A DNA stretch of 64,000 nucleotides from Dolichospermum sp. DET69. GTDB lineage: Bacteria; Cyanobacteriota; Cyanobacteriia; Cyanobacteriales; Nostocaceae. The DNA is taken from the NCBI GenBank assembly GCA_017355425.1, contig CP070233.1, forward strand, positions 5,117,501 to 5,181,500, written 5' to 3'. Position 1 is the first letter of the stretch. Each line of letters opens with the position of its first letter. Shown piece by piece: positions 12,517 to 25,315 of the stretch. The notes below the pieces were generated by a model. The model was given only the letters and a program-made list of their open reading frames with translations, searched no databases and was not told where the DNA came from. A program made the position numbers and the translations under genes.

Positions 12517-14925
12517 ATGGTTCAAGAACTGGAACGTAAACGTCAGAGTGCATCTTTTCCTAAAACTGCGACCGCAGCCAATCCTGTGTTTTTTAGAACC
12601 TACAGTCGTCGAACAGACGCAGGTTTACGAGAAACATGGGACGAGGTATGCGATCGCACATTACGCGGTTTAGTCGAATTAGGCAAACTTACCCGTCAAG
12701 AAGCCGCCATTTTAGACAAAATGCAGCGGAATATGAAAGCCCTCCCTAGTGGGCGCTGGATGTGGGTTGGTGGCACAGATTGGTTAAACAAATCCAAAAA
12801 CTTCTCTGGTGCTTATAACTGCACATCCACAAACCTTATAGACTGGAAAGCCTTCGGTTTAATGATGGATTTGGCCATGATGGGCTGTGGTACAGGTACT
12901 ATTATCGAACCGCAGTATATTAATCAATTGCCATCTATCCGTAATCGCCTTCGTATCACCGTTACAGGTGAAATTGGTAGTACACCCCAAGCACAACGTC
13001 GTGAATTTACACAAACCCATATAGAAGCTAATACCGCTACTATTTACGTTGGAGACAGCCGAGAAGGTTGGGTAAAATCCTATCAAACCCTTTTAGAACT
13101 TTCTACTGATGAACGCTTTACAGGTGAAGTTGAAGTAATTGTAGATATTAGCGATGTGCGCCAATCTGGGGAAACCCTCAAAGGCTTTGGGGGTATGGCT
13201 AATCCTGTAAAATTACCTGGATTGTACCAGCGTTGCGCCTCAATTCTCAATAAGGCTTTAGGTAGACAATTAAACTCAGTTGAATGCTGTTTGTTAATTG
13301 ATGAAGCTGCTGTCACAATTGTTGCTGGAAATATTCGGCGCTGTCTTCCTGAAGAGGCCTTAGTTCATACAGAATCAGGCTTAGTTCCCATTGCTAAGGT
13401 GCGTGTAGGTGATCGCGTTCTTACCAGTAAGGGTTTCTATCCTGTTACTAACTTCTTTGTTCAAGGTGAACAATCTCTTTGCCGTATTCAAACTCAAGAT
13501 GGCAGCTTTGAATGTACAGCCGATCATAAAGTTGCCGTTTTCACAGATGTGTACGGCAATTATCAAATGGTGAAGGCTCAGGATTTGCAATCAGGCGATC
13601 GCTTGATTTTCGTACCACGAACTATACCCGGTACACCTACTGAACTGCCTGAGTTTCGAGGTAAAGTCGAAGGTAAAACCAAAAAAATTACTATTCCTGC
13701 CTTAACTCCCGATGCTGCTTACTTCATCGGCTATTTACAGGGTGATGGTTCAGTTAGTTCTGATGGTTCAAGAGTCAGATTCCGCGTTCATGAAGATGAC
13801 CCCAATATTTTAGACCGTTTAATTGCCGTTGGGAATGAATTTGGTTTAAAAACTCACACCATAAGAACCCCAGAACAATGCAAAACCAAAGCCTACGAGT
13901 TACAATTTAACTCAGCAGCTTTAAACCAATATCTGGGATTATTCAAACAACCATTTCAACCATTAAATATCCCTGATTGCATATTATTAGGTACAGCAGA
14001 CATTCGCCAAGCTTACCTAGCTGGTCTTGCTGATGCAGATGGTTGTCATTCTCAAGGCGTTTTAGTTGCTTCAATTCACGAGAGATTTTTACAGCAAATT
14101 CAAGCACTTTACGCATCCCTGGGAATTACAACCCGGATGTGTAGTTCAATTCGCAAGCGGACTAGTAAATGGGAAGGTGAATTAGTCACAGTTGGTGAAG
14201 CGGCATATCAATCTGTTGAAAACTGCTTTGAAAAATATTCCCTGCAATTTTCTAGCCAAAAACGTCAAACCCCAAAATCATTTAAAGATCATGGTTTCCC
14301 GAAAACTATGGTACGTCCGATTATTAACTCCTATCAGTATGGATGGAGTAATAATCAGGAGCAAATGATACTCCCTACCTTGAAAAAATATCTTCCTGAA
14401 GCGACTGAATTAGTTCCAGTCAAGGTTTTAGGAGTAGAAATGAATGTACGGACTGCACAAACCTATGATATTGAAGTTGCCAGTATCCATGAATTTGTTT
14501 GTGAAGGCATTTTAGTTTCTAACAGTGCCGGTATGCGTCAATTCGTTTCTGAAGATGAACAAGGCGCAACTGCTAAAGATAACCTCTGGCAACAGGATGC
14601 AGAAGGTAGCTGGCGCATAGATCCAGAGCGTGATTCTTTGCGGATGTCCAACCATACACGAGTCTTTCACCGCAAACCAACCTTAGAAGAATCCATTGCT
14701 GCTGTACGTAAACAATACTATAGCGGTGAAGGGGCAATTCAATGGGCTGGTGAAGCAGTTGCTAGAGCTAATGCTGATTTATTAAATACACCAGAAATCA
14801 AAAAAGACTTTTTGCAAGCTTACGAGCAAGGAAAAGCTAAAGCATGGATACAAGAAAGTTACCCAAATATTGATGATCAAGAATTAGAACATCGTTTGGG
14901 TAGATATGGTTTAAACCCGTGTGGT
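12517..14925 (+). CDS. nrdJ: Adenosylcobalamin-dependent ribonucleotide reductase, first exon with intein
   Basis: Class II reductase makes deoxyribonucleotides using B12 and needs no oxygen. The first exon encodes 803 residues, of which 276-669 are an intein; the extein part is 409 residues. The N-terminal half has LPSGRWMWVGG and the active-site region AYNCTSTNL (Cys 102). The extein resumes with SAGMRQFVSEDEQG and runs to GRYGLNPCG, where the frame would hit a stop three codons later (14932-14934) unless a group I intron (14926-15194) is removed. After RNA splicing the motif becomes NPCGE, continuing in the second exon. Mature length would be about 766 residues. A separate N-terminal protein ending here would lack the catalytic Glu. 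Confidence 0.92.
13342..14523 (+). mobile_element. Intein with LAGLIDADG homing endonuclease in NrdJ
   Basis: This 394-residue intein sits between GNIRR and SAGMRQF. It begins with Cys (CLPEEALVHTESG, block A), has the TADHKV block B, two dodecapeptide endonuclease motifs (YFIGYLQGDGS and AYLAGLADADG) and ends with blocks F/G (TYDIEVASIHEFVCEGILVSN without the last junction residue changed). The downstream extein residue is Ser. The penultimate residue is Ser rather than the more usual His, which some active inteins tolerate. It is in frame throughout, so both protein splicing and homing could still work. Confidence 0.93.
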
Positions 14926-15194
14926 ATTTTATAATACTTGCCTCACGTAAAAAACCTCGCAAATACGGGGAAAGCTGAGAAGCTAATCCCGTGGTAATCA
15001 ATAGAACTAAAAAGCTATTGACACCGTACAGCGTAGAGAGTGAAACTAGATGGCAATGTAAATCCTTTTCTAGAATATAAACTCTCCAAGAGTGTGGGGA
15101 TACGTAATTCATACGTATAAAAGGTACGCGGAGCTACAGGGAATGTAGAACCTGTAGAACTAGAGGATAAAAAGCCTTTAGGATAACAAAACTG
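14926..15194 (+). ncRNA. Group I self-splicing intron in nrdJ
   Basis: The 269 nt between exon codons GGT and GAG restore the conserved NPCGE when removed. The 5' exon ends in U (T14925) and the intron ends in G (G15194), as group I introns require. The exon GTGTGGT pairs with GCCTCAC just inside the intron, giving P1 with the conserved U:G at the splice site. Internal sequences contain several paired segments (ACGGGGAAAGCTGAGAAGCT followed by AATCCCGT) compatible with the catalytic core. No endonuclease gene fits inside. Size matches small cyanobacterial group I introns. Confidence 0.88.
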
Positions 15195-16268
15195 GAGATA
15201 ATAGGTGCTAATTTCCACTGTAATCTTTCGGAGGTGCATCTAAACCAACTAGATCCTGACAACTATAAAGAACAAGAAGAAGCATTTACCGCTGGGGCGC
15301 TTTCTGTCGTCGCCCTCTTAAATCATCAATTCCTAGAACCCCGCTATCAATACAGCCGGGAATTAGATCCCATTGTCGGTGTATCCTTCACTGGTTTATT
15401 TGACTTCTTTGTTCATGCTTTTGGTTCAGAGTGGTTACGCTGGTGGGAAGCAGGAAGACCAGAAACCCCCCAAGGACTGATATTTAAAAGTGGTGAGCAA
15501 AAATATCTCAACCGCTGGAAAGATGTAGTTCATAAAGTAGTGTGGGAATATTGCGATCGCCATCACATCAAACGCCCTAACCGTTGTACTACGGTCCAAC
15601 CAGCCGGCACAAAATCCCTTTTAACAGGAGCATCTCCCGGTTGGCATCCCCCCAAGGCACAAAGATTCATCCGTCGCATTACCTTCCGTAAAAATGACCC
15701 CGTAGCCCTAGCTTGTATAGACTATGGTTACAACATCATCCCCTCCCAATCTGACAAAGACGAAACCGGCAACCTACTCAACGATCCTTTTGATCCTCGG
15801 TGTACAGAATGGTTAGTAGAAATCCCCGTTGCTGTATCTTGGGCAGATTTACCCGGTGCTGACGTAATTGATGTATCTCAGTTTTCTGCCTTAGCGCAGT
15901 TAGACTTCATTATGCAAGTACAAAATCACTATGTCACTCATAACACCTCAGCTACTTTGGAACTACGTTCTGAAGAAGTTGAAATTTTGGGAACGCGTAT
16001 CTATGAAGCCATCCAAAATGATGAAGGCTATATTTCTGCTGCATTGTTAGCCCGATTTGACGATTTGCAATCCTTTCCCCGTTTACCCTTTGAACCAATA
16101 GACAAAGCCACATATCAAAGTTTGTCTCAAGAAGTTAAAGCCAGACGGAAAACAGATGATTTCTGTGGGGCGCTAAGTCGTTACGATTTAGGGGAATTAT
16201 CAGAAGCTGGCCCTAGTGGTTGTGATTCTGATAAATGTATGTTCCCAGAACAGCCACCCACATCATAA
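15195..16268 (+). CDS. nrdJ: Adenosylcobalamin-dependent ribonucleotide reductase, second exon
   Basis: The frame continues from the group I intron with GAG ATA ATA (EIIGANFHCNLSEVHLNQLD), so translation follows the first exon and not the GTG at 15234. The 357 residues hold the C-terminal half of the barrel (PAGTKSLLTGASPGWHPPKA) and the redox tail GCDSDKCMFPEQPPTS, whose Cys pair would re-reduce the active site. The stop is followed by a GC-rich hairpin before the convergent DUF3598 gene. The gene has no partner subunit, as expected for class II. Confidence 0.92.
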   Translation, partial: EIIGANFHCNLSEVHLNQLDPDNYKEQEEAFTAGALSVVALLNHQFLEPRYQYSRELDPIVGVSFTGLFDFFVHAFGSEWLRWWEAGRPETPQGLIFKSGEQKYLNRWKDVVHKVVWEYCDRHHIKRPNRCTTVQPAGTKSLLTGASPGWHPPKAQRFIRRITFRKNDPVALACIDYGYNIIPSQSDKDETGNLLNDPFDPRCTEWLVEIPVAVSWADLPGADVIDVSQFSALAQLDFIMQVQNHYVTHNTSATLELRSEEVEILGTRIYEAIQNDEGYISAALLARFDDLQSFPRLPFEPIDKATYQSLSQEVKARRKTDDFCGALSRYDLGELSEAGPSGCDSDKCMFPEQPPTS

Positions 16269-17618: not shown

Positions 17619-18100
17619 ATAACGCAAGTTATTAGTTATTTACAATTTATGCTGGTAATGGGTAAAATTCTTACCTGTTACCTATTACTTACGCAGTAAA
17701 TTAACTAAAATTTACCAAAAAATCAAGATTTAATTGGCGGTATGTCATAGAATAGTGACAAACTCAGAAGTGCCTGTAAACTTCAGCAGTTATAAAGAAA
17801 TAATTAAGAGTCCGATTATCTATCGTCGTGATCATTCTGAAGTTAGAACAAAGGAACAGAATGGAATTAAAGTGATTCAGATAAGTTTATCAGATTAGCT
17901 CATCCGAAAGTTTGATATTTAGGCAATCACAAACTATATTCTGTGATAAAACTGCACGATAAACCGTGAAATCTGCCCTTGTGTCAGTTAATATTGTAGT
18001 CTGTGGGTGCAACTAGCCAAAGTGACCAAAAACTTGTTGAGCAAGGATATTGCCAGAGACTTGTTTTGATGATAGGGTAGGTTGAGTTGCTATTTTCAAG
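17619..18100. other. Intergenic, nothing recognised
   Basis: AT-rich spacer of about 480 bp between the small protein gene and the first NsiR1-like copy. I see no open frame with gene-like composition, no tRNA and no strong terminator. Confidence 0.5.
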
Positions 18101-18161
18101 AAAAAACCCCCAGTGGAAGTTAGCCAGCTAGGGGAGTTTAGTTATCAGGGTGCATCTACCA
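18101..18161 (-). ncRNA. nsiR1: NsiR1-like sRNA gene, copy 1
   Basis: Read on the minus strand: a predicted start near 18160 (GGTAGATGCACCCTGATAAC), then a stem CCCCTAGCTGGC...CCACTGGGGG followed by six T, a complete rho-independent terminator. TCCGGA (18191-18196), the DIF1 motif of early heterocyst promoters, lies exactly 30 nt upstream of the predicted start, so at about -35. The position upstream of hetF, size of about 60 nt and tandem arrangement match NsiR1 of Nostoc/Anabaena. Confidence 0.85.
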
Positions 18162-18271
18162 ATTAAATGTTCTCAAGTGCATAACGATCCTCCGGATAAA
18201 TTTATTTTTAACAAGTTTGTTTTGAGTTCGGGAGTCAACTACCCAGAGGTTTTTGGCAACATTGGGAAAAG

Positions 18272-18332
18272 AAAAAAACCCCCAGTGGAAGTTAGCCAGC
18301 TAGGGGAGTTTAATTATCAGGGTGCATCTACC
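18272..18332 (-). ncRNA. nsiR1: NsiR1-like sRNA gene, copy 2
   Basis: Almost identical body to copy 1 (GTGGAAG stem subtype on the plus strand). TCCGGA at 18363-18368, again 30 nt from the predicted start. Terminator with seven T. Confidence 0.85.
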
Positions 18333-18419
18333 AATTTAGTATTCTGGCATTAACTTGTAAATTCCGGATAGGCAGTAGATATTTTCTCTAAAATCTCTAA
18401 CCATAAGGATACTAGAAAC

Positions 18420-18480
18420 AAAAAAATCCCCAACTGGAAGTTAGCCAGCTAGGGAAGTTAGTTATCAGGGTGCATCTACT
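18420..18480 (-). ncRNA. nsiR1: NsiR1-like sRNA gene, copy 3, altered promoter
   Basis: The body is conserved but the terminator stem is weaker (TCCC/GGGA). The promoter motif reads TCCGGG on the plus strand (18511-18516), that is CCCGGA in the direction of transcription, one base off DIF1. It may be weaker or silent. Confidence 0.75.
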
Positions 18481-18561
18481 TATTAACTGTTCTGGTGTTC
18501 TATGTAATGCTCCGGGAAAAAATGGGTAGATGGCAATAATTGTGTTGTCCTAACCATAAAC

Positions 18562-18621
18562 AAAAAAACCCCCAGAGGTGTTAGCCAGCTAGGGGAAGTT
18601 AGTTATCAGGGTGCATCTACT
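18562..18621 (-). ncRNA. nsiR1: NsiR1-like sRNA gene, copy 4
   Basis: First copy of the GAGGTGTTAGCC stem subtype. TCCGGA at 18652-18657 with 30-nt spacing. Strong terminator with seven T. Confidence 0.85.
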
Positions 18622-18702
18622 TATTAACTGTTCTAGGGTTCTATGTGATATTCCGGAAAAAAATGGGTGGATGGCAATAATTGTGTTGTCCTAACCATAA
18701 AC

Positions 18703-18762
18703 AAAAAAACCCCCAGAGGTGTTAGCCAGCTAGGGGAAGTTAGTTATCAGGGTGCATCTACT
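18703..18762 (-). ncRNA. nsiR1: NsiR1-like sRNA gene, copy 5
   Basis: Identical body to copy 4; the whole unit including spacer is nearly the same, which points to a recent duplication of about 141 bp. TCCGGA at 18793-18798, spacing 30 nt. Confidence 0.85.
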
Positions 18763-18846
18763 TATTAACTGTTCTAGGGTTCTATGTGATATTCCGGAAA
18801 AAAATGGATGTATAGCAATAATTATGTTGTGCTAACCATAAACAAG

Positions 18847-18905
18847 AAAAAACCCCCAGAGGTGTTAGCCAGCTAGGGGAAGTTAGTTATCAGGGTGCAT
18901 CTACT
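18847..18905 (-). ncRNA. nsiR1: NsiR1-like sRNA gene, copy 6
   Basis: Same subtype as copies 4 and 5, with a diverged promoter spacer but TCCGGA kept at 18936-18941 and 30-nt spacing. Confidence 0.85.
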
Positions 18906-18976
18906 TATTAAATGTTCAATGTTTTTAACTTATGCTCCGGAAAAAATTACCCGCTTATTGTTGTTTGTCACATACG

Positions 18977-19036
18977 GAAAAAATTCCTGTGGCTGGTAGC
19001 TGGGTAGGGGAGTTAATTGTTAGGATCTCATCTACT
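18977..19036 (-). ncRNA. NsiR1-like copy 7, degenerate
   Basis: The body is recognisable (TAGCTGGGTAGGGGAGTTA and ATCTCATCTACT on the plus strand), but the terminator stem is broken and the place of the TCCGGA motif (19067-19072) reads TTCTTG. Probably a dead copy. Confidence 0.6.
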
Positions 19037-19103
19037 TAATAGTTTATATACAAATAATTGTAAACGTTCTTGGCAACCAAGAGCGTTTTTTATTTGCCAG
19101 AAT

Positions 19104-19168
19104 AAAAAAAGAAAACCCCTAGTGAGTTTTAACCAACTAGGGGAATTGAAGATCAAGGTGCATCTACC
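19104..19168 (-). ncRNA. nsiR1: NsiR1-like sRNA gene, copy 8, divergent
   Basis: The body has many changes, yet the stem is kept by compensating changes (CCCCTAG...CTAGGGG), the 5' end GGTAGATGCACC is intact, and TCCGGA is present at 19199-19204 with 30-nt spacing. It looks functional, perhaps with a different target preference. It is the copy closest to hetF. Confidence 0.78.
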
Positions 19169-19455
19169 AATAAACAGTTCTCCACGGGGATCAAGCAATC
19201 CGGATAAAGTAGTAGCAGCGGAACAGGCACAAAACCGTTCTATAAAACTAGATTAAGATCAATAGCAATGCACATCTGAAACATTAGAATGACAAAATAC
19301 ATCTAAGGTATTAGCAGGATTAGCCACTTGTGACGTGATTCCCAAAAGTAATACTGCTAATTTTTCATGTTTCCTTGTGTAAATTAAACAGGATCATGTT
19401 TACCGATGCCAGAACAGTTAATGTTTAAGGCATATAATCACAATGGATAGAAATT

Positions 19456-21667
19456 GTGCGATTCGTTGTTAGCTGAATCACGGTATCCAGCCCGTACATA
19501 AGCTAACCAACCCAATCTAATCATGGAAAAAGGCTGAACTCTCGGTCTGATATGGGTGAAAGTCCCATCTGCCAGACTCAGGTATGACTCCCTATCTGCC
19601 TACGATGACCCGACTCGGTTTCGGGAGGTCGAAGCTAGGAACAGGGCGCAATCAGACATCCGTTGTGGGTTGACACTGGTGCTAACGGGGAGTTCCCACG
19701 GTGAAACAGAGCCTAGAAAAGCGACCTACCCATAAGCAGGACACAACACCAAGAACCTGACTTCATTGGAGCTAATCCCCGCCGCATCTCGGTTTCAATA
19801 GCGGCAAGAGTCCAGGGAATCCAATGGTTGAAATGGCTACACCTAACGGAACTAACAATCAACCGAGGGAACGAATAAAAACGGGTTGAGGGTCTAAGGG
19901 CGGTCGAACCCTAAGTAGGCTGGACGAGCAGCGGAACTCCTTTAATTCGGGTAGGACAGACCGTAATTGGTCTGAGGTGTTCAGAATACACAAATTGGAA
20001 CAGAGCATGATTAGACACAGAGACAACTCTAGTGAATCCTGGAAGACGTTGCCTTGGAAGAAATTCCGCCGTAACTTATTCCGCCTACAAAAACGAGTGT
20101 ACAAAGCGGTTCAAGTTGGAGACAAGCGTAAAGCTAAGTCCCTACAAAAGCTGATTCTGAAATCTACCGCAGCAAGATTACTGGCTATCCGTCAAGTATC
20201 ACAGCTAAACGCCGGGAAAAAGACCGCAGGAATTGATGGCAAAAAGTCCCTTACCTTTAAGGAACGCTTTGAGCTTAATGAACTGCTAAAAGCATCCGTT
20301 AGCAACTGGAAACACCAGGGGCTAAGAGAAATACCTATCCCTAAAAAGGACGGCACTATCAGGATGTTGAAAATCCCTACTATTGCTGATAGGGCGTATC
20401 AATGCCTTATCAAATACGCATTAGAACCAGCACACGAGGCAACTTTCCACGCTAGGAGCTACGGGTTTAGGACGGGACGCTCGGCACATGACGCGCAAAA
20501 AGCCCTGTTTGACAATTTACGCTCATCAAGCAATGGAATAGACAAACGAGTTATAGAACTCGATATCGAAAAATGCTTTGACAGGATAAACCACACCGCC
20601 ATAATGGACAGACTCATCGCTCCTTATAGCATAAGACAGGGAATTTTTCGCTGTCTCAAAGCCGGAGTCAATCCAGAATTTCCCGAACAAGGAACACCAC
20701 AAGGCGGAGTGGTAAGTCCACTTTTAGCTAACATCGCCTTAAATGGGATTGAAAGTATTCATAGATATCACAGGACATCTAGCTTCAGAATTACAGACAA
20801 GACCTCAAGGGAACATATTATTGAGCCAACAATCCGGTACGCGGATGATATGGTAATAATACTTAGACCCCAAGACGATGCCACAGAAATACTTGACAAA
20901 ATCAGTCAGTTCCTAGCAGAGCGGGGAATGAAAGTCAGTGAGAAAAAGACAAAGCTAACCGCCACGACAGATGGGTTTGATTTCCTCGGCTGGCACTTCA
21001 AAGTCCAGAAAAACGGGAAGTTTAGATGCGTTCCATCAGTGGACAACTTTAAATCTTTTCGCAAGAAAGTAAAACACATCGTTAACAACTCGAATTATGG
21101 AGCTACCACAAAGGCTGAGAAATTAGCCCCAGTAGTTAGAGGTTGGAGAAATTACCACCGCTTCTGCAAGATGGATGGGTCTAGAAACTCTTTATCCCAT
21201 ATCAAAACAAGAGCTTTCAGGGTATTCAATAAGGAAACTAAACAGAACCGCCATACCTGTAAGCAATTAATAGATAAGGCATTCCCATCAGTTCCTTACT
21301 CCGAAAACAAACACATCAATGTTAAAGGTGAGAAATCACCCTACGACGGAGATTTGAGTTATTGGAGCGAACGTAACAGCAAGCTCTATAACAACGATAC
21401 CTCTAAAGCCCTTAAACGGCAAAGCCATAAATGCGGTCATTGTGGTCTAAAAATGCTTAGTGATGAGAAGGTACATTTACATCATGTTGATGGAAACCAC
21501 CAAAACTGGAAAACTAAAAACCTTCTAGCCATTCACTTTCATCTGCCACGATTACATACACATGAGCAAAAGCGAAAGCTAAGAACATCGGAAGCTGGGT
21601 GCGGTGAAAGTCGCACGCCCAGATTTAACAGAGAGGGGCGGGAAATAATATTCCCCCTCGACTCTAC
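19456..21667 (+). mobile_element. Group II intron with RT/maturase-HNH protein
   Basis: The 5' end is GTGCG at 19456-19460, the usual group II start. A domain V hairpin lies at 21592-21627, followed by a domain VI stem (GAGAGGGG...CCCCTCGACTC) with a candidate branch A, and an end near CTCTAC (21667). The 5' boundary is likely; the 3' boundary is uncertain by a few bases. It carries an intron-encoded protein. It has inserted between the NsiR1 array and hetF. Confidence 0.8.
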
Positions 21668-21671
21668 CTAA
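19977..21671 (+). CDS. ltrA: Group II intron-encoded reverse transcriptase/maturase with HNH endonuclease
   Basis: The protein helps the intron fold, cuts the target strand and copies the intron into DNA. The 564-codon frame has an N-terminal RT0-like region (LNAGKKTAGIDG), RT blocks including IPKKDGTIRMLKIPTIADRA, GTPQGGVVSPLLANIALNG and the catalytic YADD at 288-291. Then comes the maturase X domain (VVRGWRNYHRFCK) and an HNH domain (CGHCGLKM, LHHVDGNHQNWKTKNLLAIH). The GTG at 19977 or the ATG at 20007 may be the start. The last 40 codons overlap domains V and VI of the ribozyme, so the natural C-terminus is unusual. Confidence 0.88.
   Translation: MFRIHKLEQSMIRHRDNSSESWKTLPWKKFRRNLFRLQKRVYKAVQVGDKRKAKSLQKLILKSTAARLLAIRQVSQLNAGKKTAGIDGKKSLTFKERFELNELLKASVSNWKHQGLREIPIPKKDGTIRMLKIPTIADRAYQCLIKYALEPAHEATFHARSYGFRTGRSAHDAQKALFDNLRSSSNGIDKRVIELDIEKCFDRINHTAIMDRLIAPYSIRQGIFRCLKAGVNPEFPEQGTPQGGVVSPLLANIALNGIESIHRYHRTSSFRITDKTSREHIIEPTIRYADDMVIILRPQDDATEILDKISQFLAERGMKVSEKKTKLTATTDGFDFLGWHFKVQKNGKFRCVPSVDNFKSFRKKVKHIVNNSNYGATTKAEKLAPVVRGWRNYHRFCKMDGSRNSLSHIKTRAFRVFNKETKQNRHTCKQLIDKAFPSVPYSENKHINVKGEKSPYDGDLSYWSERNSKLYNNDTSKALKRQSHKCGHCGLKMLSDEKVHLHHVDGNHQNWKTKNLLAIHFHLPRLHTHEQKRKLRTSEAGCGESRTPRFNREGREIIFPLDST
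21592..21627 (+). ncRNA. Group II intron domain V
   Basis: AGCTGGGTGCGGTGAAAGTC followed by GCACGCCCAG. It folds into the 34-36-nt domain V hairpin, with the AGC catalytic triad at the base and the GAAA tetraloop. This is the catalytic heart of the ribozyme. Confidence 0.82.
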
Positions 21672-21849
21672 ATGTGGCTTATAAACTGCTGAATGTACGA
21701 AAGCAATTTGTACGGTTGGCTCATCGGCAAGTTACACCCGTGGACAAAAAGTAGTCTTTTACCTTAGTGGAAGCGGGAAATAAACAGCAATGTATGGCTT
21801 GCGCCACGCTGTGCTATCAGCATTGTCTAAGTTTTATGGAGCAGAAATT

Positions 21850-24390
21850 GTGACCCAGGAATTTCACCTTTCCGCAACGCCTGTGGGGCAAAATGACTAT
21901 CTAGTGCGGACGGAACAAGTTGCACCTGGGGTACCGGTGGCAGAAGAACTGGTGCATTGGCCTGTGGCTGAGTGGTTAGCGGCGGCAGGAGATTTAATGG
22001 ATGATCCTTTGCAGTTAGTATTGCAGGGGAATATGGCAGCCAGAAACTCTGTTAACTTGGTGGCCTTGGGTCAGGAGTTGTATAATGCGCTGTTTCAAGG
22101 ATCTCTTAGAGATAGTTGGATTACTGCCCAAGGGATTGCCCAAAATCACCAACAGGTACTACGGCTAAGATTAGGACTCAAGGATACGAGGTTGGCGCGG
22201 TTGCCTTGGGAAGTCATGCACGCAGGTGATAATGGCGGGCGCTGCCTACGTCCCTTAGTTACTGGTCCTGATATTACCTTTGCCCGTTACCAAACTGGTC
22301 TAGCCCCAGCATCGCGGTTGCTAACTCATAATATCCCCACGTCGTCGGAAGCACGGGGGGTAAGAGTGCTAATGGTAATTTCCTCGCCTACTGACTTAGC
22401 ACGGCTGGATTTGCTCAAACAAGAAGCCATCAACCTGAAAGCAGAACTGCACCGCCAAGCATTAAGAGTGGCTGATGGTAATCATTATCTACCAGAAATT
22501 GAATTGACTGTTCTTGACGGGCCGGGTAGGGAAGAACTCACTCAATCTTTGGAACAGGGAAATTACCATATTTTCCACTATTCTGGTCATAGCAACTTGG
22601 GGGCAAATGGTGGGCAAATTTATTTGGTAAGTAAAAAAACTGGTTTAACAGAAACTCTGAATGGGGATGATTTAGCTGGGTTACTAGTTAATAATAATAT
22701 TCAAATGGCAGTGTTTAACTCCTGCTTGGGGGCATATCGGGCTAAGTCCGAGACGGGGGAAGACTCAGGAGAACGGAATTTAACTGAAAGTTTGGTAAAA
22801 CGGGGAATTAGAAGTATTTTGGCGATGTCAGAACGGATACCTGATGAGGTGGCTCTGACGTTGACACAATTGTTTTACCGCAATTTGAGTCAAGGCTATG
22901 CTTTAGATTTATGTATAAGTCGGGTCCGTCAAGGGTTAATTTCTGCCTATGGTTCTCAACAGATGTACTGGGCTTTACCGATTTTGTATCTTCAGCGAGA
23001 ATTTGATGGTTATTTAACTCCACAAGTTAATTTATCTAGACATATAGCTACGCCACGCGGGCTATCGGAGTTACTGAACCAATATCAGCCTCCCCAGGAA
23101 ACAAATAATTATAACTATTCTGATTTGGGAACTAATCCAGAGATTTCTTTAGCTATTGATGATATTCTCAATCCTAATTTTGGCGAGGAAATAACGGAGG
23201 TAGACTGGCTAGGGGAAGATACTTGGGGTGATCTGGTTGATGAAATTGAGTATGATGACCCCAGCTATAATGAAGATTCGGCTATAGTTTCGGATTTGTT
23301 TCGTCAACTTGGTAATCCGATTGCTAAAACAGAAGAACCAAGGATGAAGGCGGAATTAATCGCAGATAATCATCATTATCTGTCGGAAATGCAGGTTTCC
23401 CAGCCGCAACAAAATTTAGATTGGGGAAATGTCCCCACTCAGATTACTCCAACTCCGTTGAATCTGGAGCAGCGTGAGGTAAATCCTCAGTTATCACCTT
23501 CACTGGTGCCTCAACAGGGTAATCGCTTTCATCGGCAAAAATGGGCAGCCAGAGGCGGACTGCCCTTACTGTTGTTATATGGTTTGGTGGGAGCAAGTGC
23601 AATTACTATTATCCTTGGTATTGGTTGGTGGTGGCATCAACGACAAGCTCAGAAGTCTTCTGATATTCCGCCGATTCCTGGACAAAATTTTGCCAATAAT
23701 CAGTATCCAAGGATTAATTTAGCTAATTCAGCTACGGGAATTGTGACGGCTATGGCTACGACGCAGTTGAGTCAAGGTAATTTAAAGGCTGGGTTGGATG
23801 CTATTAATGAATTACTGAATCGTGGTGCTTTTACGGGTGCGGAAACGGCTTTAAATTTGATTCCTGCTCAGGATACTGATAATCCATCTGTGAACTTTTT
23901 CCGTGGGCGTTTAGCTTGGCAGTCAGTACAAACGAAAAATAATAAATATAGTATTGATGATGCTCGTCGTTATTGGGCTAGGGCTGTAGAAAAGCAGCCA
24001 GATTCTCTTTTGTATAGTAATTCGTTAGGATTTGCCTATTATGCGGAGAATAATCTTAATTATGCCAATGATGCTTGGTTCAAATCACTGAACTTAGCCT
24101 TAAAACCCCAGGAGAATAAAAATTCTAGCCCCATGAAATATCCACAAATAGCTGGAGAACCGGAAGCTTTGACGGCTTATGCTGGGTTAGCTTTGGGTTT
24201 ATATAAATCTGCTAAAAGTCAACCCGCTGATAAACGCCAGCAATATTTACAGGAAGCGATTAAACTCCGGCAAATGGTCATTCAAAATGCGCCCGCAGAC
24301 TTTACTATTGAGAGGTTATCACAAAATTGGCTATGGACTGAACAGGCGATCGCAGATTGGCGATTGCTTTTGCAAGAAAATAGTCCATAA
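21850..24390 (+). CDS. hetF: HetF, CHAT-domain (caspase-like) protease needed for heterocyst differentiation
   Basis: HetF is required for normal HetR turnover, pattern formation and cell division in Nostoc. I chose the GTG at 21850, preceded by GGAG, because VTQEFHLSATPVGQNDYLVR is where the conserved protein begins; an ATG at 21790 would add 20 poorly conserved residues. Of 846 residues, the CHAT domain has the His in HIFHYSGHSNLG (about 247) and Cys in AVFNSCLGAY (about 292). After an acidic linker comes one membrane segment (GGLPLLLLYGLVGASAITII, about 575-600), then a C-terminal TPR-like helical region. Upstream regulation by NsiR1 is known in Nostoc; here a group II intron intervenes. 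Confidence 0.93.
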   Translation: MTQEFHLSATPVGQNDYLVRTEQVAPGVPVAEELVHWPVAEWLAAAGDLMDDPLQLVLQGNMAARNSVNLVALGQELYNALFQGSLRDSWITAQGIAQNHQQVLRLRLGLKDTRLARLPWEVMHAGDNGGRCLRPLVTGPDITFARYQTGLAPASRLLTHNIPTSSEARGVRVLMVISSPTDLARLDLLKQEAINLKAELHRQALRVADGNHYLPEIELTVLDGPGREELTQSLEQGNYHIFHYSGHSNLGANGGQIYLVSKKTGLTETLNGDDLAGLLVNNNIQMAVFNSCLGAYRAKSETGEDSGERNLTESLVKRGIRSILAMSERIPDEVALTLTQLFYRNLSQGYALDLCISRVRQGLISAYGSQQMYWALPILYLQREFDGYLTPQVNLSRHIATPRGLSELLNQYQPPQETNNYNYSDLGTNPEISLAIDDILNPNFGEEITEVDWLGEDTWGDLVDEIEYDDPSYNEDSAIVSDLFRQLGNPIAKTEEPRMKAELIADNHHYLSEMQVSQPQQNLDWGNVPTQITPTPLNLEQREVNPQLSPSLVPQQGNRFHRQKWAARGGLPLLLLYGLVGASAITIILGIGWWWHQRQAQKSSDIPPIPGQNFANNQYPRINLANSATGIVTAMATTQLSQGNLKAGLDAINELLNRGAFTGAETALNLIPAQDTDNPSVNFFRGRLAWQSVQTKNNKYSIDDARRYWARAVEKQPDSLLYSNSLGFAYYAENNLNYANDAWFKSLNLALKPQENKNSSPMKYPQIAGEPEALTAYAGLALGLYKSAKSQPADKRQQYLQEAIKLRQMVIQNAPADFTIERLSQNWLWTEQAIADWRLLLQENSP

Positions 24391-25315
<925 letters not shown>

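Follow-up and report, generated by a model that had tools for sequence, protein, structure and literature searches.

The window, a 64,000-nt stretch of the Dolichospermum sp. DET69 genome, carries on its minus strand a tandem array of NsiR1 sRNA genes, parted from hetF by a group II intron. We read this locus, with a probability of roughly 75%, as an array that acts in trans on a HetP-family gene and in cis on hetF, whose leader is split by the intron. Our own observations comprise the family identity of the RNAs, the spacing of their promoters, the anatomy of the locus, the insertion of the intron, and a conserved pairing site at a HetP-family gene. We consider the by-products of the analysis, namely natural separations of array and hetF and a dispersed sister gene, to matter more than the array itself.

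How might such a locus work? According to the favored reading, seven DIF1-type promoters would fire in cells turning into heterocysts, giving rise to RNAs of ~60 nt, each stopped by a terminator of its own. The 5′ half of NsiR1, which is largely unstructured, would act in trans by pairing over the start codon of the HetP-family gene, and repression of the latter would ease commitment. In cis, the copy nearest hetF, which is antisense to the predicted leader of this gene, would repress hetF, which we propose lets HetR build up. The leader would further be split by the 2.2-kb intron on the strand of hetF, so that antisense site and hetF would come near each other only after splicing. For expression specific to heterocysts, and for the effects exerted on hetF and alr3234, we rely on papers on Nostoc 7120; by analogy, these would hold here as well.

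The NsiR1 array and its promoters

Tandem arrays of NsiR1-type sRNAs are known in N2-fixing filamentous cyanobacteria and have a role during heterocyst formation. One such array was reportedly described by Ionescu in 2010 in Nostoc (Anabaena) sp. PCC 7120, where it lies upstream of hetF. In the window, an Rfam scan matches seven minus-strand units to RF02399 (NsiR1) with 56.2–67.2 bits, the curated cut-off of this family being 39 bits (Table 1). The sequence-only reading had named NsiR1 and suggested a covariance-model search as a check, and this search bears the name out. Its count of eight tandem genes is to be corrected: seven copies stand, but the eighth unit is a relic without DIF1, NsiR1 stem, or Rfam match, and eight functional copies are therefore rejected. 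Likewise, STnc390, Yfr10, STnc560, and other Rfam families over the array region were discarded with scores below their respective cut-offs. The repeats follow each other in steps of 172, 148, 141, 141, 143, and 263 nt, the last and long step containing the eighth unit. Seven copies had also been credited with a terminator-like stem. The Rfam model does align a stem and U-run in each of them, but only two stems clearly stand out from shuffles (z −2.18 and −2.14, as opposed to −0.06 to −0.72 in the other five, which counts against the favored reading), and a simple terminator scan reported three of the seven.

Table 1. Features of the array and its surroundings, with related loci in the same genome (G000) and in a congener (G005). 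Plain coordinates refer to the window.
Feature	Position	Strand	Evidence and remarks
NsiR1 copy 1, distal end of array	18099..18161	−	RF02399 67.2 bits; DIF1 TCCGGA 18191-18196, gap 29
NsiR1 copy 2	18271..18333	−	RF02399 66.4 bits; DIF1 TCCGGA 18363-18368, gap 29
NsiR1 copy 3	18420..18481	−	RF02399 56.2 bits; one-mismatch DIF1 18511-18516, gap 29
NsiR1 copy 4	18561..18622	−	RF02399 60.3 bits; DIF1 TCCGGA 18652-18657, gap 29
NsiR1 copy 5	18702..18763	−	RF02399 60.3 bits; DIF1 TCCGGA 18793-18798, gap 29
NsiR1 copy 6	18845..18906	−	RF02399 61.2 bits; DIF1 TCCGGA 18936-18941, gap 29
Degenerate NsiR1 relic, in place of nsiR1.2	~18975-19037	−	12.4 bits with own profile; no DIF1
Terminator-like hairpin upstream of predicted hetF start	19062..19088	+	Terminator scan; z −5.45
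NsiR1 copy 8, nsiR1.1 position, antisense to predicted hetF leader	19108..19169	−	RF02399 60.8 bits; DIF1 TCCGGA 19199-19204, gap 29
Group II intron	19456..21668	+	RF00029 domain V/VI 21590-21667; 22 other near-full copies; empty site in relatives
Intron-encoded reverse transcriptase-maturase, open frame of 564 aa	19977..21671	+	Pfam RVT_1, RVT_N, GIIM
hetF	21790..24390	+	CHAT domain; 94% to hetF-position gene of Dolichospermum sp. ST_sed8
NsiR1-like sister gene, lgt-cobM junction	G000:C1:3860206-3860260 (L059)		RF02399 54.9 bits; DIF1
NsiR1-like sister gene beside exoD-like gene	G000:C1:4291524-4291580 (L057)		RF02399 40.3 bits; DIF1
G005 hetF	G005:C1:2667428-2669953 (L103)
G005 NsiR1 array	G005:C1:3459984-3461197 (L102)

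We regard the locus as the NsiR1 tandem array known from Nostoc 7120 (PMC9045159, PMC8406250, PMC3141674) and Nodularia, now seen in one more species. As far as the accessible portions of these papers go, the Nostoc array resembles ours in RNA family, RNA length (~60 nt), tandem copies each with DIF1, the strand opposite hetF, a hetF-proximal copy antisense to the hetF leader (a predicted leader in our case), and a HetP-family target (PMC9045159, PMC8406250). It differs in having 12 copies, whereas here we find seven plus the relic, along with a predicted hetF leader split by a group II intron. Nodularia spumigena CCY9414 also has a tandem NsiR1-type array upstream of hetF; its copy number (12 repeats) is different from ours, and the available part of the report mentions no intron (PMC3610870).

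The DIF1 motif TCCGGA is not enriched in the window as a whole (seven sites, with 8.05 expected from shuffles), and six of these seven sites fall within the ~1.1 kb of the array. The binomial probability of at least six of seven sites lying within 1104 nt is 1.8e-10, a value that assumes independent sites even though some copies are recent duplicates. Whether exact (six copies) or with one mismatch (copy 3), every motif is separated from the predicted RNA start by 29 nt, so that counting from its final base to the first base of the RNA gives 30 nt. This is the geometry that had been claimed from the sequence. A scan for the sigma-70 consensus yielded no more sites than shuffles would (4, with 5.3 expected).

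Copies 4 and 5 are free of differences over 100 nt, and copies 3–6 appear to be recent tandem duplicates with a period of 141–143 nt. The window alone thus offers few independent cases of this spacing, and it is the relatives that supply them. Once matches with a late start in the profile, with N, or with less than 60 nt upstream had been set aside, 371 profile matches in the DET69 genome and its relatives gave 184 distinct 60-nt upstream sequences (named and unnamed loci overlap, and identical upstreams were counted once). An exact TCCGGA is found at a gap of 28, 29, or 30 nt in 14, 145, and 7 of them, respectively, that is, in 166 of the 184. Exact motifs at other distances occur in two, and among the 16 upstreams devoid of an exact TCCGGA, there are 13 one-mismatch motifs at gap 28–30. 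Within the 145 gap-29 upstreams, pairwise identity averages 0.33 across the spacer, 0.39 in the stretch ahead of the motif, and 0.65 in the −10 region. With the gap fixed while the spacer is near-random, the DIF1 spacing looks selected rather than merely copied, and the earlier argument for selection, made from the array's constant spacing and varying spacers, holds in this larger set. TCCGGA at −35, a conserved extended −10, and no conserved spacer are the features described for the DIF+ promoter class in the accessible text of PMC6133370. The array promoters agree with this class in their sequence pattern: all seven non-relic copies combine TCCGGA (with at most one mismatch) near −35 with a conserved −10 region.

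A pairing site at a HetP-family gene

In Nostoc 7120, NsiR1 is described to pair over the alr3234 start codon (PMC9045159). The DET69 genome encodes three HetP-family genes. For the first 32 nt of six array RNAs, pairing with the start region of one of these genes (G000:C1:1814067-1814252, minus strand) is predicted at −17.5 to −19.0 kcal/mol, a strength reached by 0–4 of 300 shuffles that preserve base content only. This agrees with the alr3234 interaction, as far as that report was accessible, and we infer that the gene is the alr3234 counterpart. A second HetP-family gene (L115) pairs weakly (5–95 of 300 shuffles as good), and the third (L114) was rejected as a target because its pairing is no better than shuffles (92–259 of 300).

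The site itself is conserved within the genus: ATCAGGGTTAGT, immediately ahead of the ATG, is kept in all 16 of its genomes, DET69 among them. Outside the genus only one of four loci has it, which counts against the favored reading. A generic copy-1 5′ end pairs with 19 HetP-family loci at −14.5 to −18.6 kcal/mol (0–9 of 200 shuffles as good), as compared to −5.1 to −7.0 kcal/mol (148–191 of 200) for 16 loci of a control HetP paralogue. The site of locus L160 was read separately from the others. Stop codons occur in three of the 20 matches to the HetP family, another point against.

hetF, its predicted leader, and the intron

With hetF on the plus strand as the next host gene after the array, the window has the layout published for other cyanobacteria, a minus-strand array with hetF opposite (PMC9045159, PMC8406250, PMC3610870, each accessible in part). 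To this extent the claim that the locus lies beside hetF, as for NsiR1 in Nostoc, is upheld. Direct adjacency is lost, though, because the 2.2-kb group II intron intervenes: the nearest NsiR1 copy is 2621 nt away from hetF, versus 138–702 nt in 19 named relatives (one of which, L056, was measured from a weak partial match). The closest named relative of hetF itself comes from Dolichospermum, and comparison with relatives offers GTG at 21850 as an alternative start.

The intron, whose junctions are placed to within a base or so, begins with GTGCG at 19456, in keeping with GUGYG, and its domain V/VI scores 53.9 bits. The genome holds 22 other near-full copies at 88–91% identity. When a 361-base query over the 5′ junction was compared with other genomes, its leader side was matched in eight congeners (G002, G004, G006, G008, G009, G010, G012, and G013) up to base 116 at most, and intron copies elsewhere mostly began at base 117, with few alignments extending back to 97–116. 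Only one of 16 genomes of the genus, the own genome, matched the full query. At intron position 336 a candidate EBS1, GGTTTC, can pair with GAAATT of the 5′ exon (four Watson-Crick and two G-T pairs). Given that six-base matches with G-T are common, the weight is carried by the shared position of EBS1: six of seven other correctly oriented copies match their own exon at 335–341 (the exception being L062), in comparisons of EBS1 and 5′ ends that leave out the minus-strand loci L065–L068. The family numbers 23 near-full copies in total; EBS1 loops vary between copies and mostly fit their own exon. Two copies adjoin each other head to tail on contig 2, at 68991-71173 and 71174-73356.

Where would hetF transcription begin? 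In Nostoc 7120, the hetF start lies within nsiR1.2, 256 nt ahead of the frame (PMC8406250, accessible in part). Together with a conserved TTTGCCAAAAT-like block that follows a strong plus-strand terminator hairpin, this suggests a start near 19105 in the window, which would place the intron inside the leader and leave a mature leader of ~470 nt. The predicted leader would thus be split by the intron and probably restored by splicing. The hairpin, located between the relic and nsiR1.1, may shield hetF from upstream transcription; in several relatives its arms have changed yet still pair.

The relic, in turn, scores 12.4 bits (E 0.047) with a profile built from the seven copies, has no RF02399 report at E up to 5, lacks TCCGGA in the 45 nt upstream even with one mismatch allowed, and folds otherwise than the NsiR1 stem (z −1.96). 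A block homologous to it is present in all 12 aligned relatives, and a weak profile match (16.0–21.8 bits), also without DIF1, is found at its place in five of 19 named relatives. In view of the Nostoc start within nsiR1.2, occupation by the hetF promoter may be what made this unit decay as an sRNA gene.

The predicted hetF leader pairs with every NsiR1 member at −29.6 to −60.5 kcal/mol. This follows from the leader being the complement of copy 8, for which pairing is true by construction, and from the other copies sharing its 5′ end. The 5′ part of nsiR1.1 and its surroundings are among the most conserved stretches of a 13-sequence alignment, and NsiR1 is reported to inhibit hetF translation in Nostoc 7120 (PMC9045159, accessible in part). 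Both speak against an array whose targets, HetP-type and others, are all reached in trans and whose link to hetF is historical. Such a trans-only array would explain why the intron and the separation in a congener described below are tolerated, as hetF would be independent of the antisense site, and it fits with the conservation of the HetP site across the genus. It is also in line with the Nostoc 7120 observation that altering or removing the nsiR1.1 −10 box changed a hetF promoter-gfp fusion little (PMC8406250, accessible in part). A TATAAT-like sequence at ~19434, just before the intron, could furthermore provide a hetF start downstream of the antisense site, which counts against the cis reading.

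The congener in question, G005 (two contigs, 99% complete), carries hetF and the array on one contig, at 2.67 and 3.46 Mb, respectively, and thus ~790 kb apart, and comparison with a normal relative places the break between nsiR1.1 and hetF. Eight GGTGCATCTAC sites lie within 10 kb around the G005 array, and none on either strand in the 10 kb around its hetF. As G005 keeps its array while hetF and leader are ~790 kb off and without an antisense site, the hetF branch appears to be dispensable there. The eight copies retained without a link to hetF are an argument for action in trans alone; in light of the conservation around nsiR1.1 and the reported effect on hetF translation, we nonetheless consider this explanation unlikely and prefer an array acting on both targets. 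The separation of array and hetF in nature, by an intron here and by rearrangement in G005, raises the question of which NsiR1 target is maintained by selection.

That the repeats are neutral or selfish, of little function, and changed in number by slippage and recombination is very improbable: copy number does vary (2 to 16 RF02399 matches per genome across the 49 matching genomes of 60 scanned), one copy is a relic, and duplications are recent, yet promoter geometry is fixed despite diverged spacers, the conserved 5′ half matches a target site, and a function is published for Nostoc 7120 (PMC9045159, accessible in part).

Dispersed sister genes

Outside the array, two further matches in the genome exceed the RF02399 cut-off, so that the existing NsiR1 model of Rfam already reaches these sister genes. 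A third dispersed match (G000:C1:4060692-4060749) was dropped, with 31 bits being below the cut-off and no TCCGGA in the 150 nt surrounding it. Both sister genes combine the NsiR1 5′ end GTAGATGCACC with another terminator stem and an exact TCCGGA at gap 28 or 29, and the one at the lgt-cobM junction lies on the opposite strand, overlapping the end of lgt by 20 nt. Of 80 genomes, 60 contain the combined pattern of DIF1 and NsiR1 5′ end, and none contains a reversed control pattern. A looser version of the pattern yields 11 matches in the DET69 genome: six in the array, the two sister genes, and three without the NsiR1 5′ end. In the literature searched, which does not include the 2010, 2019, and 2020 primary papers on NsiR1, we found no description of the sister genes, of an intron-split NsiR1/hetF leader, or of a separation of array and hetF in a congener.

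We collected 41 dispersed loci, our own two and 39 picked by eye among the matches listed. Within this choice, 25 adjoin cobM (lgt being detected as well at 22 of them), eight an exoD-like gene, and eight neither. Of 192 genomes of the family, 187 contain the 22-mer TGGTAGATGCACCCTGGTTNAG of the lgt-cobM type, at one site each, its neighbors having been checked within the 41 dispersed loci. In a 17-sequence alignment, the terminator stem of the lgt-cobM type pairs in 98% of cells, and three pairs are changed on both sides, which 7 of 500 shuffles achieve. Its covariation score was reached by none of 500 shuffles, and the count of further pair types in the same alignment was not above shuffles (427 of 500).

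The sister RNAs, too, are predicted to pair with the HetP-family start region targeted by the array: the lgt-cobM RNA at −24.5 kcal/mol (0 of 300 shuffles as good; the 32 nt used include part of its stem) and the exoD-type RNA at −16.1 kcal/mol (7 of 300). With a 22-nt query, the lgt-cobM type gave −12.9 to −18.1 kcal/mol against the HetP site and was not stronger than the array type. We tentatively suggest, at somewhat less than even odds, that NsiR1 constitutes a dispersed regulon of sister RNAs with a common 5′ seed and DIF1, in which the lgt-cobM member is the most conserved and persists through reshuffling of the array, while the hetF branch is rewired within the genus, by intron splicing here and by separation in a congener. 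Readily amenable to testing in laboratory strains, the lgt-cobM sister gene is a candidate for a conserved heterocyst sRNA.

Two observations concern other parts of the window. At 12517-16268, a frame for a B12-dependent ribonucleotide reductase with intein/LAGLIDADG-type domains ends at 14934, and the frame at 15234-16268, itself without a match in Pfam, may continue it beyond an interruption; a group I intron at 14934-15234 was rejected, given no Rfam match at E up to 0.1. Directly after hetF and ahead of a P-II gene (24926-25315) lies a HEARO RNA (24470-24710, 123.1 bits).
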